Assembly: GCA_022823365.1 (NCBI GenBank)
Contig: JAJDXG010000035.1
Span: 1-64,000 of the forward strand
Length of the DNA: 64,000 nt
Reading direction: 5' to 3'
Source: Gemmatimonadota bacterium
Lineage (GTDB): Bacteria; Gemmatimonadota; Gemmatimonadetes; Longimicrobiales; Gaopeijiaceae
The notes under the pieces are model-generated. The model had not been told where the DNA came from. It did no database searches and saw nothing but the letters and a program-made list of their open reading frames with translations. The translations under genes were made by a program, and so were the position numbers. Shown piece by piece: positions 54,630 through 60,733 of this stretch. Positions within the stretch are counted from its first letter, which is position 1; every line of letters begins with the position of its first letter.

Positions 54630-54734
54630 GGTCAGGTCACTCCTCGAGGCTTTCGACGCGGTGATCGATCAAGCGACAGGATGACTGGCGTTCCTCTAGG
54701 CACGAACCGATCATCACGAGAGTTGGAAGATTTA

Positions 54735-54799
54735 GTATACAAAAACGGTGATTCATGGGTGATTATGTATACGATATCGGCCAACTCCTGACGATATCG
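54735..54799 (+). repeat. Repeated palindromes in the promoter region of the ATPase operon
   Basis: GTATAC occurs at 54735-54740 and 54767-54772, 32 bp apart. ACGATATCG, with the palindrome CGATATCG inside it, occurs at 54771-54779 and 54791-54799, exactly 20 bp apart, two turns of the helix. The stretch from about 54720 is AT-rich relative to the rest of the window. Spaced palindromes of this sort suggest an operator bound by a dimer or tetramer. Confidence 0.5.
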
Positions 54800-54810
54800 C
54801 CTTGTTAATC

Positions 54811-54840
54811 TTGTTCATCAGACCTGAACCGGGCTATCTT
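54811..54840 (+). promoter_or_regulatory. Candidate promoter of the two-gene ATPase operon
   Basis: TTGTTC (54811-54816) and TATCTT (54835-54840) are separated by 18 bp. Transcription would start near 54847, giving a leader of about 42 bases before the ATG at 54889. The repeated palindromes end 11 bp upstream of the -35 box, as an activator or repressor site might. Confidence 0.4.
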
Positions 54841-54888
54841 CCCTCCGTAACCGGAGCCGGAATCGACCCATCGAGCACCAGCCACCGC

Positions 54889-56310
54889 ATGGCAAACGTT
54901 GACGCACTGCGACACATGCTGGCCCGCACCAGCTGGTGGGCCGAGCCGCGCACCTGGATCCTAAGAGATCCGGATCTGATCCGGGCGCGCAAGGCCCCGT
55001 TCGAGTATTCGGCCGGCGTTCTCGGCAATCTGGCGCCGGGCGGCCTCTACCTGCTCCGCGGACCCAGGCGGGTGGGGAAGTCGGTCGAGTTGAAGAAGAC
55101 GATCGAGCAACTCATCGCGTCGGGCGAGGATCCTCGCCGGATCGTGCACGTGGCCGCGGACAGACTGGTCGCGGGCGATCTGCAGCGAGTCGTGGACGCG
55201 GCGGCGCCGCTGACGCCCCGGACCGGCCCCCGGTTCTGGTTCATCGATGAGATAACCGCGATCACGGATGGGTGGCCCGCCGCCATCAAGTGGCTGCGGG
55301 ACAACGACCCGCGCTTCGGCCTGGACACGGTCGTGCTTACAGGTTCCTCGGTGGCCGGCCTGGACGAGGCGGTCAAGGCGCTCGCCGGAAGACGCGGCGG
55401 AGCGGAGAAGTCGGATCGCGTTCTTCTGCCGATGCCGTTCCGGGCTTTTGTTCGTGCGCAATCCGACCATCCTCCTCCTCGCGGTCCGGGCCCACTGTCC
55501 GTCGCGGACCTGACACCGGCCGCGTTGGAGGAAGCCGTCGCAACGCTCGCGCCCTGGCTGAACCAGCTCATCCAGGAGTGGGAGATCTACCTGACCGTCG
55601 GTGGATTTCCCCAGGCCGTCTCGGCGCATGTCACCGGTGACATGCGCGCACGGCGAGCCCTTCGGCAAACTCTGCTGGATGTGATTCACGGGGAGGCATT
55701 CGTCCAGTCGAGATGGTCCAGAGCTCAGTCGGGCGCGTTCGTGGCGCGGCTTGCCCGAGGTCTCGCGTCTCCCACCAACCACCACGACATCGCCACGGAC
55801 CTGGATACATCGGCGCAAACCGTTCGCCGCCGCATCGATGCCCTGCGCGATGCCTTCACGGTCTGGCCATGCCATCCATGTCACCCCAAGGGACCGCTAC
55901 GACCGGCCTTGCGTGCCCAGCAGAAGACGTACTTCACGGATCCCGTTTACTCCTTTCTCTCACGTCACGCCGAACCGACCGCCAACCTGGGCCTCTTTTC
56001 CGAACAGCAGTTGGGCGTGGCCCTCCTCAGATCGTTCGCGCGCGTGGATCCCGGTGCCTATCCCAACTTCGACTCGGTGCTGTACCACCGAACCCCGGCC
56101 CGCAAGGAAATCGACTTCGTTGGTCCCGGCTTTGGAGATCTCGCGGTCGAGTCCAAGTACGTCGACCAGCGCCGATGGAGAAGAGACGCGCGGACGCTGG
56201 CCGCGTCCAGATGGCGCGGCGTGATGGCGACGCGGAGCGCGCTGGATCTGAACGATCCCGAGCTCGTGGCGGTCCCGACGGGGCTGCTGGCCTGGTTGAT
56301 CGGAGGCTGA
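54889..56310 (+). CDS. AAA ATPase with DUF4143-like C-terminal nuclease motif
   Basis: A 473-residue protein of the AAA_14/DUF4143 kind. Walker A is LLRGPRRVGKSVELKK (55-70), Walker B is FWFIDEITAI (116-125), and the sensor strand is VVLTGSS (148-154). A winged-helix-like segment spans about 285-330. Residues 395-473 carry an Asp-then-Glu-x-Lys pattern typical of PD-(D/E)xK nucleases: EIDFV (Asp409) and LAVESKYVD (Glu421, Lys423). ATG at 54889 fits the family; a TTG at 54802 would add 29 residues. The next gene follows one base after the stop. Similar proteins occur in poorly understood, often mobile or defence settings. The substrate is not known. Confidence 0.8.
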   Translation: MANVDALRHMLARTSWWAEPRTWILRDPDLIRARKAPFEYSAGVLGNLAPGGLYLLRGPRRVGKSVELKKTIEQLIASGEDPRRIVHVAADRLVAGDLQRVVDAAAPLTPRTGPRFWFIDEITAITDGWPAAIKWLRDNDPRFGLDTVVLTGSSVAGLDEAVKALAGRRGGAEKSDRVLLPMPFRAFVRAQSDHPPPRGPGPLSVADLTPAALEEAVATLAPWLNQLIQEWEIYLTVGGFPQAVSAHVTGDMRARRALRQTLLDVIHGEAFVQSRWSRAQSGAFVARLARGLASPTNHHDIATDLDTSAQTVRRRIDALRDAFTVWPCHPCHPKGPLRPALRAQQKTYFTDPVYSFLSRHAEPTANLGLFSEQQLGVALLRSFARVDPGAYPNFDSVLYHRTPARKEIDFVGPGFGDLAVESKYVDQRRWRRDARTLAASRWRGVMATRSALDLNDPELVAVPTGLLAWLIGG

Positions 56311-56311
56311 G

Positions 56312-59300
56312 ATGGTGCGCGACCCGCTGTACAGAAGCATCGAGAAACGCCTCGGCGAGCGGCTGGACCCCGACCTCTTCGAAAGATGCGCGGTGGAGCT
56401 GTTGCGGGACGCATACCCGGGACTCGCGCCGATCACGGGCGGTGATGATGGAGACAGGGACGGGGCGATCGCGTCCGGAGCGGGGGAACCCCTTCCACTG
56501 GTCGTCACGACGAGCCAGAGGGTCCTCGGCAACCTCACTCGCAACCTGAAGCGGTATCGGCGTGCCGGCGGGTCCGCAATCGAGGCTGTGTTGGCCACAT
56601 CGCAGGAACTCACAGGCCGCAAGGTGAGCAATCTTGAGAAGCGCGTCCGGGAACTCGGCTTCACGCTTCGGAACGTTCACGACCAGCGCGACTTCACGGG
56701 TCGCCTTTATCGGAACCCGATGTGGCGAAAGGAGCTGTTGGGCCTGACGGGCGACTTGCCCGCTCTCTCTGCGTTGCCCGACAAGGCCGGTTCTCGCTGG
56801 AAGATGAGGCTCGTGGGTCGAGACCGGGAAATGGACTGGCTTCGCCGAGCCAGTGGAGATGTCGTCGTCGCCGGACAACCCGGAGTCGGCAAAACGGCGC
56901 TCCTCGAGAAGCTCGCCAGGGAGGGCGGCGGTCTGTTTCCGATCGTGACGCGGACCAGAAGCGCCACGGCCCTGACCCCCCGCAACATGGGGAGGATCGC
57001 CGACGCTTATCGGGAGCAGCGTCCGCCCCGGATCTTCGTTGACGATGCCCACCTGCGGGACTCGCTTATCGAGAGACTTGCCCGGCTGCGCGACGAGATC
57101 GGTGCGGAGTTTGCCATCGTCGCCACGACCTGGCCCAGCCACGAAAATGAAGTACGCCGGGAACTGCTTTGCCCACGGGACCACGTCTTGCGAGTGGGAG
57201 GACTCGACCGAGGAACAGCGGCAAAGGTCGTACGGCAGGTGCATGCCGGCTTCTCCGACGATCTGGTCGCCGAGATTCTCAACCAGAGCGTCGACAATAT
57301 GCCGGGGGATGACCCCCGGACCGCGGAATACCTGATGGGGGGACATGTTCGGCCGGGACTGGCGGTTACTCTGGCCCGGTACGCCAGTCTGGGCGATCTC
57401 GCCGATCTGGCAACCGGCGAACTGTTGCTATCCGCAGTGAGGAAGGACGCGCGGCTGGACGGATCGCAACTCGACTTTCTGGCATCCTTCGCCCTCGGGG
57501 GATCCGCAGGCATGAGACTCGCCATGGCTGCCCGGGCGTTGGACACGCCCGCAACGACCGTGCGGCAATCCCTGCTCCGAGTGTCCGGCACAGGTATTGT
57601 GCGTGATGTTCGGGGTGGAGCGGCAACAATCCATCCCCGGCATCTGAGGCATGCCCTCGTGAAGCGGACTTTCTTCTCCGGCGCATCCAGCCTGGCGCTG
57701 GAACCGTTGATCGACCGCGTCGAGGACGCCGTGGCGTGTACCGAGACGTTGATCGACGTGGCCGGCAGGGCTGGTCGCGTACTCGACCATGAGCTGCGGG
57801 AAGCGCTGGACGCACGCATACGCACGCGATTGGAGGACCACGAGCGAGCTGGCGTCGGACGTAGCCTTTGGGAATCCTACGCCCTGACGAGCGAGGACGC
57901 GGTTGGGTGGATTCTGGACCAGCATCCCGAACGGACGACATCGGTCTCCAGTACCGCGCTCAGACACGCGCCCAGCAGATTTCTCGGCGGACTCGTTTCC
58001 AGAGCTCTGAGCAACGGGGACGAAGCTGACGCTCTGACTAATGCCATTCGTGGGTGGGTACTGGCCGGCCAGCCGGGCAAGGATGCCGTAGAACGCCGCG
58101 CGTCCGTGGTTCGTGAATTGGCCGAACGGGCCTGCAGCGTGAACCCGGGCCAGACGAATCTAGAGGCGATATCCGAACTCCTCGCCGCCGCATTCTCGTT
58201 GTCCTTCCAGCGGTGGCGCGGTGATCCGATAGAGGTGACCGGATTCACGATCGGCCTTGGTTCTCTTCCAGCGCCCGACGTGCAGGAGATCGCGGATCTG
58301 TGGACTCTGGCTCTGCCGGTCTTTCGCAGTCTTGAGGCACGTGGCCTGTCTTGCGCACGCGGCGTGGTCCACGATTGGCTGATCGGGCCTCATATCCTCA
58401 ACGAGTTGGACGAGACTCGGGTCGCGGCGCGCGAAGAAGTGCGGCGGATGTTGCCCGGGATCCTCGACCTGGCGGGCAACGAACCAGGCATCCTGCTCTG
58501 GGCGCACAGGCTCGCTCGCAAGCACGGGCTGGATGTCGAATTACCGGATATCGGCGACCCAGCCCTGCGTCGACTTTTTCCCGATCCCCTCTGGCCGGAG
58601 AACCGACCGGACGCCGTGCGCGACTTCCGCGGCGAATCCCTGCCCGGAGACTGGCCGCAAGAACGACTCGACGCCATCGCGAGGGACATTGCCCACGAGT
58701 GGCTACGCGGGAAGCCCGGGGAAGTGGTCGCACGCATGATGCACTACGAACGCCAGCGGGAGTTGATGGATCACAACTACCCGAACGTGCTGGAGCATAT
58801 CCCCCTGCATCTCGCTCAGCGGGTGGACGATCCGGGATCCTGGCTGGAGGAGTTGGTGGATCGTGACGCGCAGCCCGGATGGGTCGTACCATTCCTGGAA
58901 GCCGCCGTGGTTTCCGGAGCAGGTGATCGCGCCTGGGAGGTTGTCGCAAGAGATGACCGGTACATGGGGCCGTGCGTGCGTGTTGGCCTGTGCGTGGCCG
59001 GGCTACCCGAGCCGATCGTTGGCCGCATCATGGAGCAGGTGAACGAGGATGTGTTGTCTCACTCGATCGACTGGAACGGGGTTGCCCGCGATTGGAAGGA
59101 CCGCCTTCTTCGGCACCCTGCGCCGAGCGTCCGAGGGGCTGTGGCCGGCGGCATGTGGGAAGCCCACGGAGGAAAAAGACCGGGCGGACCGCTTGGCATG
59201 GCGTGGGAGGAGGCTGTCCTGGCCTGCGGCAGCACCCACATGATGTTTGACCTGCTCCGCCGGGATCCCGGTGTTGGGCGCGCCTGGATTCTGTCGGAAG

Positions 59301-59680
59301 CGCGCAGGAGTTCTGTACGTAGAGGGAAGCGGGATTCCGGCCGCAAATGGGAGGCAACCCTTGAGGAATTAAAGGCTGACGTATTGAGGGGCCTCGAAGA
59401 GCCTTCGGTGGATGAAGAACTGCTCACCGTGGCAACTGGCAGTCTGGACGAGGAATCTCGCCGGGAGCTGATCGGCGCGATCCCGGCCGACGCCAACCCG
59501 AAGTTCTTCCGCCACCTCGTCGACGACGAACCAGAACTGTACGCCGTACTCTTACGCCGCCGAGCAGCAAGAAAGGCCCATCCGGCTCCCCTCCGATGTC
59601 CGCACTCCTTCGGGCGCGAAGCTCTGGTTCGCGAAGCCATCAAACACGGCTACTCTCAGCGCGACATTGACGGCTGGTGA
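56312..59680 (+). CDS. STAND-type NTPase with N-terminal restriction-endonuclease-like domain
   Basis: A 1122-residue protein in three parts. Residues 1-145 resemble a PD-(D/E)xK fold: FERCAVELLRDAYPG (Glu24), GGDDGDRDGAI (43-53), LVVTTSQRVLGNLTRNLKRY (63-82), then VLATSQELTGRKVSNLEKRV and the HDQRDF loop. The usual Glu-x-Lys is replaced by a Thr-Ser-Gln. Residues 165-460 form a P-loop NTPase, Walker A AGQPGVGKTALLEKL (187-201), Walker B RIFVDDAHLRD (240-250), sensor AIVATTWP (268-275), and a winged helix after 390. The remaining 650 residues are helical with no named domain, as in target sensors of STAND proteins. GGAGG lies six bases before the start. The gene is one base from the preceding ATPase gene. 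Confidence 0.75.
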   Translation: MVRDPLYRSIEKRLGERLDPDLFERCAVELLRDAYPGLAPITGGDDGDRDGAIASGAGEPLPLVVTTSQRVLGNLTRNLKRYRRAGGSAIEAVLATSQELTGRKVSNLEKRVRELGFTLRNVHDQRDFTGRLYRNPMWRKELLGLTGDLPALSALPDKAGSRWKMRLVGRDREMDWLRRASGDVVVAGQPGVGKTALLEKLAREGGGLFPIVTRTRSATALTPRNMGRIADAYREQRPPRIFVDDAHLRDSLIERLARLRDEIGAEFAIVATTWPSHENEVRRELLCPRDHVLRVGGLDRGTAAKVVRQVHAGFSDDLVAEILNQSVDNMPGDDPRTAEYLMGGHVRPGLAVTLARYASLGDLADLATGELLLSAVRKDARLDGSQLDFLASFALGGSAGMRLAMAARALDTPATTVRQSLLRVSGTGIVRDVRGGAATIHPRHLRHALVKRTFFSGASSLALEPLIDRVEDAVACTETLIDVAGRAGRVLDHELREALDARIRTRLEDHERAGVGRSLWESYALTSEDAVGWILDQHPERTTSVSSTALRHAPSRFLGGLVSRALSNGDEADALTNAIRGWVLAGQPGKDAVERRASVVRELAERACSVNPGQTNLEAISELLAAAFSLSFQRWRGDPIEVTGFTIGLGSLPAPDVQEIADLWTLALPVFRSLEARGLSCARGVVHDWLIGPHILNELDETRVAAREEVRRMLPGILDLAGNEPGILLWAHRLARKHGLDVELPDIGDPALRRLFPDPLWPENRPDAVRDFRGESLPGDWPQERLDAIARDIAHEWLRGKPGEVVARMMHYERQRELMDHNYPNVLEHIPLHLAQRVDDPGSWLEELVDRDAQPGWVVPFLEAAVVSGAGDRAWEVVARDDRYMGPCVRVGLCVAGLPEPIVGRIMEQVNEDVLSHSIDWNGVARDWKDRLLRHPAPSVRGAVAGGMWEAHGGKRPGGPLGMAWEEAVLACGSTHMMFDLLRRDPGVGRAWILSEARRSSVRRGKRDSGRKWEATLEELKADVLRGLEEPSVDEELLTVATGSLDEESRRELIGAIPADANPKFFRHLVDDEPELYAVLLRRRAARKAHPAPLRCPHSFGREALVREAIKHGYSQRDIDGW

Positions 59681-59740
59681 CGGGCGGCTCGCTCGCCCGC
59701 GCGCAGATTGCCGCCGAGCGCGTGGATCAGGACATGAGTG

Positions 59741-60733
59741 TCAAGATTCACCGTCGGCATTCCAACGGACGCCCGTGGTCGTGACGTCCCCCCGGACGCG
59801 GACCTTGTCCCGAAGAATGCCGATGTCGCCGAACTCCCCCATCGTCCGACTCAATCGCTCGACCGTGACGAATTCCGCTTCCGAGGACTCGTTGATGCGG
59901 TCGGCCAGGAACTCGATGTCGTCCAGCGGCGCCTCGCCCGCGAGCGACTTCAGCTGGAGACGTTCGAAGGATCCAAGCACCTCCCCAACCTGCTGCGCCT
60001 CGCGCACGAAGCTTGCGCCGATCCCCGCCAGCGCCGTCTCGGCCCCGGCGATCACCATGTCGGCGGCTCCCGACAGCCGGTCGAGCCGGCGGGTCTCCTC
60101 GATGTCGCGGTTGCAGCGGTCCATGACCGCGATTCTGGCCTCGCAGTCGTTGTAGAACCTGCGAAGGACGTCGGCCCGTCCGTCGAGCTTTCCGAGGGCC
60201 GAACGGAGCTTGGCATGCAGTCCGGTCGCCGTCTTCAACTGGCCGGCGAACGTCCGATTTTCGGGATCCTGGCTCAGGCGGGCCCGCCAGTAGGCCATTG
60301 AACGGTGGGCGTCGTCCACGGCCCCGGCGAGTTCAGCGCGAGCGGCGCCCCATTCGGATCCGCTCCCCAGGGTTCGCGCCCTGTGTCTCTCGACCTGCCC
60401 GCGGAATTCGTGCACGGCGAATCGGTACACGGCCAGGACCACGCCCGACTCGCCGGCCTGGAAAGCCTTGAGGCGGCGGGACGCACGCCGGTGCGGCGGG
60501 AGATAGCGAACGAGAACCAGCGTCCCCACGGCTGACAGCACACCAAGCGTGCCGGATCCCGTCACCAGCCCGAAGACCAACCACAAGCCGGCGAACCGGA
60601 GCACGGGCAAGGCGCAGCCGTAGAATTCCTGGAGGTCCTCATCCGTGCCCTTCCGCTTTCGCGCGGCTTCCCGCCTCTTCGCCTCCTCCGCCTTGAAGCA
60701 ACGCCGGGCGATGGCCTCCAGCGAGCCGCCCAC
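59741..60733 (-). CDS. Membrane protein with long coiled coil, unknown
   Basis: A 330-residue protein. A basic N-terminus (KAEEAKRREAARKRKG) precedes two adjacent membrane helices (LPVLRFAGLWLVFGLVTGS and TLGVLSAVGTLVLVRYL, about 43-78). From about 100 to 300 it is helical with heptad-like repeats (GQLKTATGLHAKLRSALGKL, RRLDRLSGAADMVIAGAETA), so a coiled-coil or phage-shock-like rod is possible. No family recognised. GTG start 60733 lies 3 bp after the S9 peptidase stop on the same strand. It converges with the STAND gene, 60 bp away. Confidence 0.65.
   Translation of the reverse strand: MGGSLEAIARRCFKAEEAKRREAARKRKGTDEDLQEFYGCALPVLRFAGLWLVFGLVTGSGTLGVLSAVGTLVLVRYLPPHRRASRRLKAFQAGESGVVLAVYRFAVHEFRGQVERHRARTLGSGSEWGAARAELAGAVDDAHRSMAYWRARLSQDPENRTFAGQLKTATGLHAKLRSALGKLDGRADVLRRFYNDCEARIAVMDRCNRDIEETRRLDRLSGAADMVIAGAETALAGIGASFVREAQQVGEVLGSFERLQLKSLAGEAPLDDIEFLADRINESSEAEFVTVERLSRTMGEFGDIGILRDKVRVRGDVTTTGVRWNADGES

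Follow-up and report, generated by a model that had tools for sequence, protein, structure and literature searches.

Two genes that sit one base apart in the window, the 64,000-nucleotide stretch of DNA analysed here, raise the question of whether two different ATPases work together in bacterial immunity and, if they do, which of them senses the invader and which of them acts on it. A sequence-only reading had singled out the pair. The first gene (54889..56310, forward strand) encodes a 473-aa AAA_14-DUF4143 ATPase of the PDC-S01 family, hereafter the AAA protein, and the second (56312..59680, forward strand) a 1122-aa STAND NTPase. The junction between stop and start, TGA-g-ATG, bears out the one-base gap noted in that reading, and an in-frame TTG at 54802 is a possible alternative start for the AAA gene. 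Judged from the sequences and their relatives, the locus is probably an undescribed immune system.

The pairing itself was examined across genomes, a check that the sequence-only reading had proposed. Full-length STAND homologues were found in eight genomes of a 298-genome Gemmatimonadota sample, all from two genera of one family, and the same eight genomes were recovered when all available species of both genera were covered (2/11 and 6/23 species). In every one of the eight an AAA gene immediately precedes the STAND gene, with a gap of one base in seven and of two in G173, and the pairs occupy different chromosomal sites. Coupled open frames kept under purifying selection in eight genomes are not a product of chance. 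AAA relatives, in turn, are present in 19 of the 394 genomes of the class at a threshold of 1e-30, and at least eight loci are solitary (the second copy in G152, and those in G053, G259, G148, G054, G162, G251 and G349); G233 is not counted among them, as only 126 bp of its contig follow the gene. In a tree of 17 proteins the paired AAA proteins cluster, not necessarily as one clade, and gain of the partner is not polarised against its loss. Within the phylum, then, the STAND gene always comes with an AAA gene, and the AAA gene needs no STAND. The earlier view of the AAA protein as the STAND partner therefore holds for adjacency but not for exclusivity, as close relatives stand alone and the host genome carries 19 DUF4143 genes.

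A ninth STAND protein, with 29% identity across its entire length, is encoded in a planctomycete MAG (L044:1249-4593). It is the sole STAND seen without an AAA gene, and no AAA relative was found anywhere in that genome. Its GC3 of 0.28, against about 0.5-0.6 for its neighbours, makes recent transfer probable. The first gene of the same contig resembles a chimera of two genes. The STAND gene is otherwise rare: no homologue was found in the plasmids or phages searched, and further candidates from the STAND scan (L045-L049, L009 and L011) were rejected as generic P-loop or unrelated proteins. No AAA homologue was found in the viral contigs searched, and one distant match (25.6%) came from an archaeal plasmid. 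A single-sequence scan of genome contigs gave no match.

The AAA protein matches Pfam AAA_14 (8e-12) and, over residues 283-423, DUF4143 (2e-6), the latter at 28.0 bits against a cut-off of 28.1 and with 1.3e-8 for the best homologue. A PADLOC search, also suggested by the sequence-only reading, assigned it to the candidate-defence family PDC-S01 (best model 7e-20), with which it shares the AAA_14 plus DUF4143 architecture; PDC-S01 is modelled as a single gene, whereas here the AAA gene comes first in a two-gene operon and is followed by STAND. The P-loop region GPRRVGKS (residues 57-65, 55057..55083, forward strand) is invariant in ten sequences, and so is the C-terminal Asp...Glu-x-Lys that had been pointed out before, D409...E421-x-K423 (56113..56157, forward strand), which as a motif in sequence has the D...(D/E)xK form of PD-(D/E)XK nucleases. 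DUF4143 proteins usually carry this D...ExK motif, which is thus no peculiarity of the AAA-STAND locus. A putative HTH lies within the DUF4143 region at about residues 297-322 (55777..55854, forward strand); the profile matches are weak but recurrent, in seven of ten members with a best value of 0.0066. An AlphaFold model built from the ten-sequence input reached a pLDDT of 41.

Identification of the second protein as a STAND-type P-loop NTPase was sound. It has a Walker A (GQPGVGKT, residues 188-195), a hydrophobic-DD Walker B (FVDDAHL, residues 242-248, F[VI]DD[AV]HL in the family) and a GxP-like RPGLA (residues 347-351), all kept in the eight homologues, followed by predicted C-terminal helical repeats. 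Family profiles gave weak AAA_16/NACHT/nSTAND3 matches in 8/8 members, and no confident family or described defence-model match was found. The NTPase core with a winged-helix-like region (residues ~161-470) occupies 56792..57721 on the forward strand. The long helical C-terminus described earlier is likewise predicted: a solenoid of about 630 residues (~471-1100; 57722..59611, forward strand), presumed to be the sensor, was modelled mostly at pLDDT 70-91, and the N-terminal half of the protein was poorly predicted. A fold search with the model returned generic HEAT/ARM-type solenoids at Z 8-9.5, a range common for helical repeats.

At the N-terminus (residues ~1-160; 56312..56791, forward strand) the nuclease proposed before stands only in part. 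PADLOC's Aga_REase profile matches five of the eight members, with weak support (best 2.7e-5; 0.019 for the window protein, residues 17-133), and the D-G core is retained (D50, G51). However, the lysine position, where ExK or QxK is expected, is occupied by S, A, G or R in the Gemmatimonadota proteins and by E in the planctomycete one, and the domain is probably not an active nuclease. The likeness to the short-Argonaute-associated Aga_REase-TIR ends there; Argonaute, TIR and the other parts of that system are absent at the locus. With an invariant D...ExK in one protein and no lysine in the N-terminus of the other, the AAA protein is more likely to be the nuclease, on motif evidence.

The closest described plan is that of the Avs (AVAST) proteins, in which an effector-like N-terminus, a central NTPase and a C-terminal helical-repeat sensor are joined; both this layout and activation by phage proteins are established for Avs (PMC12931631). 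The locus differs from Avs in the incomplete nuclease motif of the STAND N-terminus and in the second ATPase gene upstream. No Avs1-Avs5 match to the STAND protein appeared among PADLOC or NCBIfam profile matches; the STAND protein fits no described Avs or other defence model with confidence, in support of the earlier reading of the pair as a candidate undescribed system. It could still be that the STAND protein alone senses and cleaves DNA, as in Avs, using a displaced catalytic residue, with the AAA protein as a regulator or accessory. The tripartite plan shared with Avs1-4, the REase-like profile match and the planctomycete STAND without an AAA relative all speak for this, but the ExK/QxK equivalent is missing from the expected place in 9/9 STAND sequences, the AAA motif is invariant, and the AAA gene is never missing beside a Gemmatimonadota STAND, and we regard this alternative as unlikely.

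The two genes have diverged to different extents. Identity among paired proteins is 67-89% for AAA and 44-73% for STAND. Between G152 and G017 the DNA is 85-97% identical over the AAA gene and mostly 46-69% identical once the initial 400 bases of STAND are passed, and dS climbs from 0.30 in AAA to 0.69 in the STAND N-terminus, 1.03 in the NTPase and 1.47 in the solenoid. Such a rise is a signature of recombination and marks the pair as recombinant. Throughout both genes dN/dS is 0.10-0.37, indicating purifying selection on each. The most variable STAND stretches fall within the solenoid, as would be expected of a sensor; by these alignments the solenoid is mosaic and diverging and the AAA protein is conserved.

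Upstream of the operon an AT-rich promoter core contains an operator-like dyad, GTATAC-N26-GTATAC (54735..54772, no strand assigned), found by pattern search, with the palindromes starting at 54735 and 54767, 32 bp apart. An exact search of 27 genomes gave seven dyads, all of them at AAA-subfamily loci or at apparent remnants of these, and 0 sites for the reversed-pattern control; the 3.8-Mb host genome has a single copy. When one or two mismatches or N27 are allowed, the dyad stands before the majority of 17 inspected AAA genes, whether solitary or paired, including the distant ones of G349 and G052. It is degenerate in the recombinant pair G152/G017, where G017 has a 32-bp direct repeat. Such a distribution makes the dyad a candidate operator, which we infer to be read by the AAA protein's own HTH. 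Triple GTATAC arrays in 16-bp steps were also seen, in G138 downstream of STAND (L033:6211-6248) and in G197 next to a STAND remnant (L038:10754-10791). A role as the end of a mobile element was set aside since most copies lie just upstream of AAA genes, solitary ones included; the triple arrays of G138 and G197, being downstream of STAND or its remnant, leave it some probability.

That AAA-subfamily genes occur alone with the same dyad, and that the host has 19 DUF4143 genes, would suit a self-regulated, semi-selfish solitary gene whose promoter and ribosomes the STAND gene merely borrows, with no joint function. We find this decidedly unlikely, as all eight STANDs keep the exact AAA partner at a gap of one or two bases in different chromosomal sites and purifying selection acts on both genes.

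Comparison of the flanks by blastn showed that a segment of the window, 54640..60714 (no strand assigned), is missing as one block in five sister genomes of the genus; there the sequences flanking 54640 and 60714 meet within about 13 bp, leaving an empty site. At the same site G161 retains the neighbouring 330-aa ORF and a dyad, G362 has the AAA start fused to the STAND end by internal loss, plus PIN/VapC-like genes, and G364 has VapBC-like genes. One site in the genus (window 54640-60714; L087-L094) is thus seen empty or with the pair, the 330-aa ORF, VapBC-like genes or remnants. The 330-aa ORF (59741-60733, reverse strand) has membrane and coiled-coil-like stretches, is unrelated to the pair and comes and goes independently of it in sister genomes. 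A second variable site adjoins branched-chain amino-acid transporter-like and ABC genes (L028, L034, L035, L036, L039) and holds the pair in G173, a solitary AAA gene in G152 and G053, and other AAA_14-like genes in G138 and G197. The AAA-STAND cassette is patchy, polymorphic by site in the manner of defence cargo, and often lost. GC3 is 0.77 in AAA and 0.72 in STAND, against 0.84-0.90 in the neighbours; of the signs of transfer put forward earlier, the lower GC3 and the AT-rich promoter are real, but the promoter turns out to be a specific GTATAC dyad. The promoter palindrome pair, the mosaic sensor and the empty site were missed by the sequence-only reading.

The neighbourhood invites two further explanations. 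As an addiction module of toxin-antitoxin type, the AAA protein would be an autorepressing antidote and the STAND protein a latent toxin. Gene order, coupling and the operator-like dyad recall such modules, as do the VapBC-like genes that sister genomes carry at this site, but the first gene, the supposed antidote, which such modules would pair obligately with the toxin, is often solitary. The intact nuclease-like motif of the AAA protein and the planctomycete STAND without an AAA relative also count against an addiction module, and we hold it to be very improbable. A pair of ATPases that serves this host group in regulation or stress rather than in defence would fit the narrow distribution in one bacterial family, but patchiness, empty sites, remnants, lower GC3 and a mosaic sensor are atypical of housekeeping genes, and this explanation seems to us improbable.

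The reading we tentatively favour, at a little short of even confidence, is an autoregulated immune module with a STAND sensor and an AAA effector, the latter a nuclease, carried on a mobile-like cassette as one transcription unit. The AAA protein, probably oligomeric, would bind the dyad through its HTH and keep the operon low. Once the STAND solenoid recognised a product of the invader, the NTPase would switch the protein to an oligomer, whose nuclease-like but lysine-less N-terminal domain may offer a docking surface on which the AAA protein is recruited or unleashed, and the DUF4143 domain of the latter would then act on DNA. The sensor could be exchanged by recombination and the effector kept. 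Counting for this immune module are the adjacency in 8/8 genomes, the empty sites, remnants and VapBC-like cargo, the PDC-S01 match, the intact D...ExK of the AAA protein, the loss of the STAND lysine, the recombinant sensor, the confinement of the dyad to AAA loci and the Avs plan. Counting against it are the solitary AAA loci, the planctomycete STAND without AAA, the rarity of STAND and the lack of a phage or plasmid copy among those searched.

The AAA protein belongs to a large family. PDC-S01 is described as ranking fourth in frequency among the defences of all prokaryotes, and experimental validation of most PDCs is pending (PMC12988326). We found no description of the function or experimental validation of PDC-S01 in the open-licence literature, which cannot prove absence, and among the open-licence literature searched DUF4143 is named in PMC4406477 alone. 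DUF4143 genes are strongly multiplied, with 19 in the host genome G000 (e.g. L132-L144) and 34 in G017 (L147-L171), and ten of ten paralogues tested from host and sister genus match PDC-S01 (1e-46 to 1e-129). Upstream repeats that outscore almost every shuffle (p up to 0.02) precede 18/34 DUF4143 genes against 6/60 controls (Fisher 1e-5). In this comparison the windows were placed by start codon for the controls but by P-loop for the DUF4143 genes, orthologues lack independence and control rates exceed nominal; the best direct-repeat period was 22/23 or 45/46 bp for 16/34 DUF4143 genes and 6/60 controls. As this first gene set had suggested the idea, only a small planctomycete set (L178-L207) is independent, and there 12/16 DUF4143 genes and 5/18 controls have such repeats (p = 0.015). 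As a partly tested observation, then, DUF4143/PDC-S01 genes in two phyla have gene-specific upstream repeats, commoner than before control genes.

A broader reading, possible but held with more doubt, has the DUF4143/PDC-S01 ATPases, which rank among the most frequent predicted defence genes, each controlling its own expression: the HTH of the protein would read an operator array specific to its gene, either a pair of palindromes about 32 bp apart or tandem repeats of 22-23 bp. In this lineage one such ATPase would have taken a STAND sensor into its self-controlled unit, giving a two-ATPase immunity with sensing by STAND and action by the AAA nuclease. The operon that ties a STAND gene to PDC-S01 suggests that PDC-S01 serves as an effector, and the upstream arrays offer a ready-made DNA target per DUF4143 gene for binding or cleavage. 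Should the AAA protein prove to bind or cut the palindromes before its own gene, what a very large orphan family does would be open to direct test.

The upstream DUF4143 repeats are either inverted or in tandem, the latter with units of 22-23 or 31-32 bp, and several of the planctomycete ones have 31-32-bp periods. They are common to related genes across genomes and different between paralogues; three TTTCTCGTAATAA-like copies, for example, precede one DUF4143 subfamily in G000, G017, G138 and G197.
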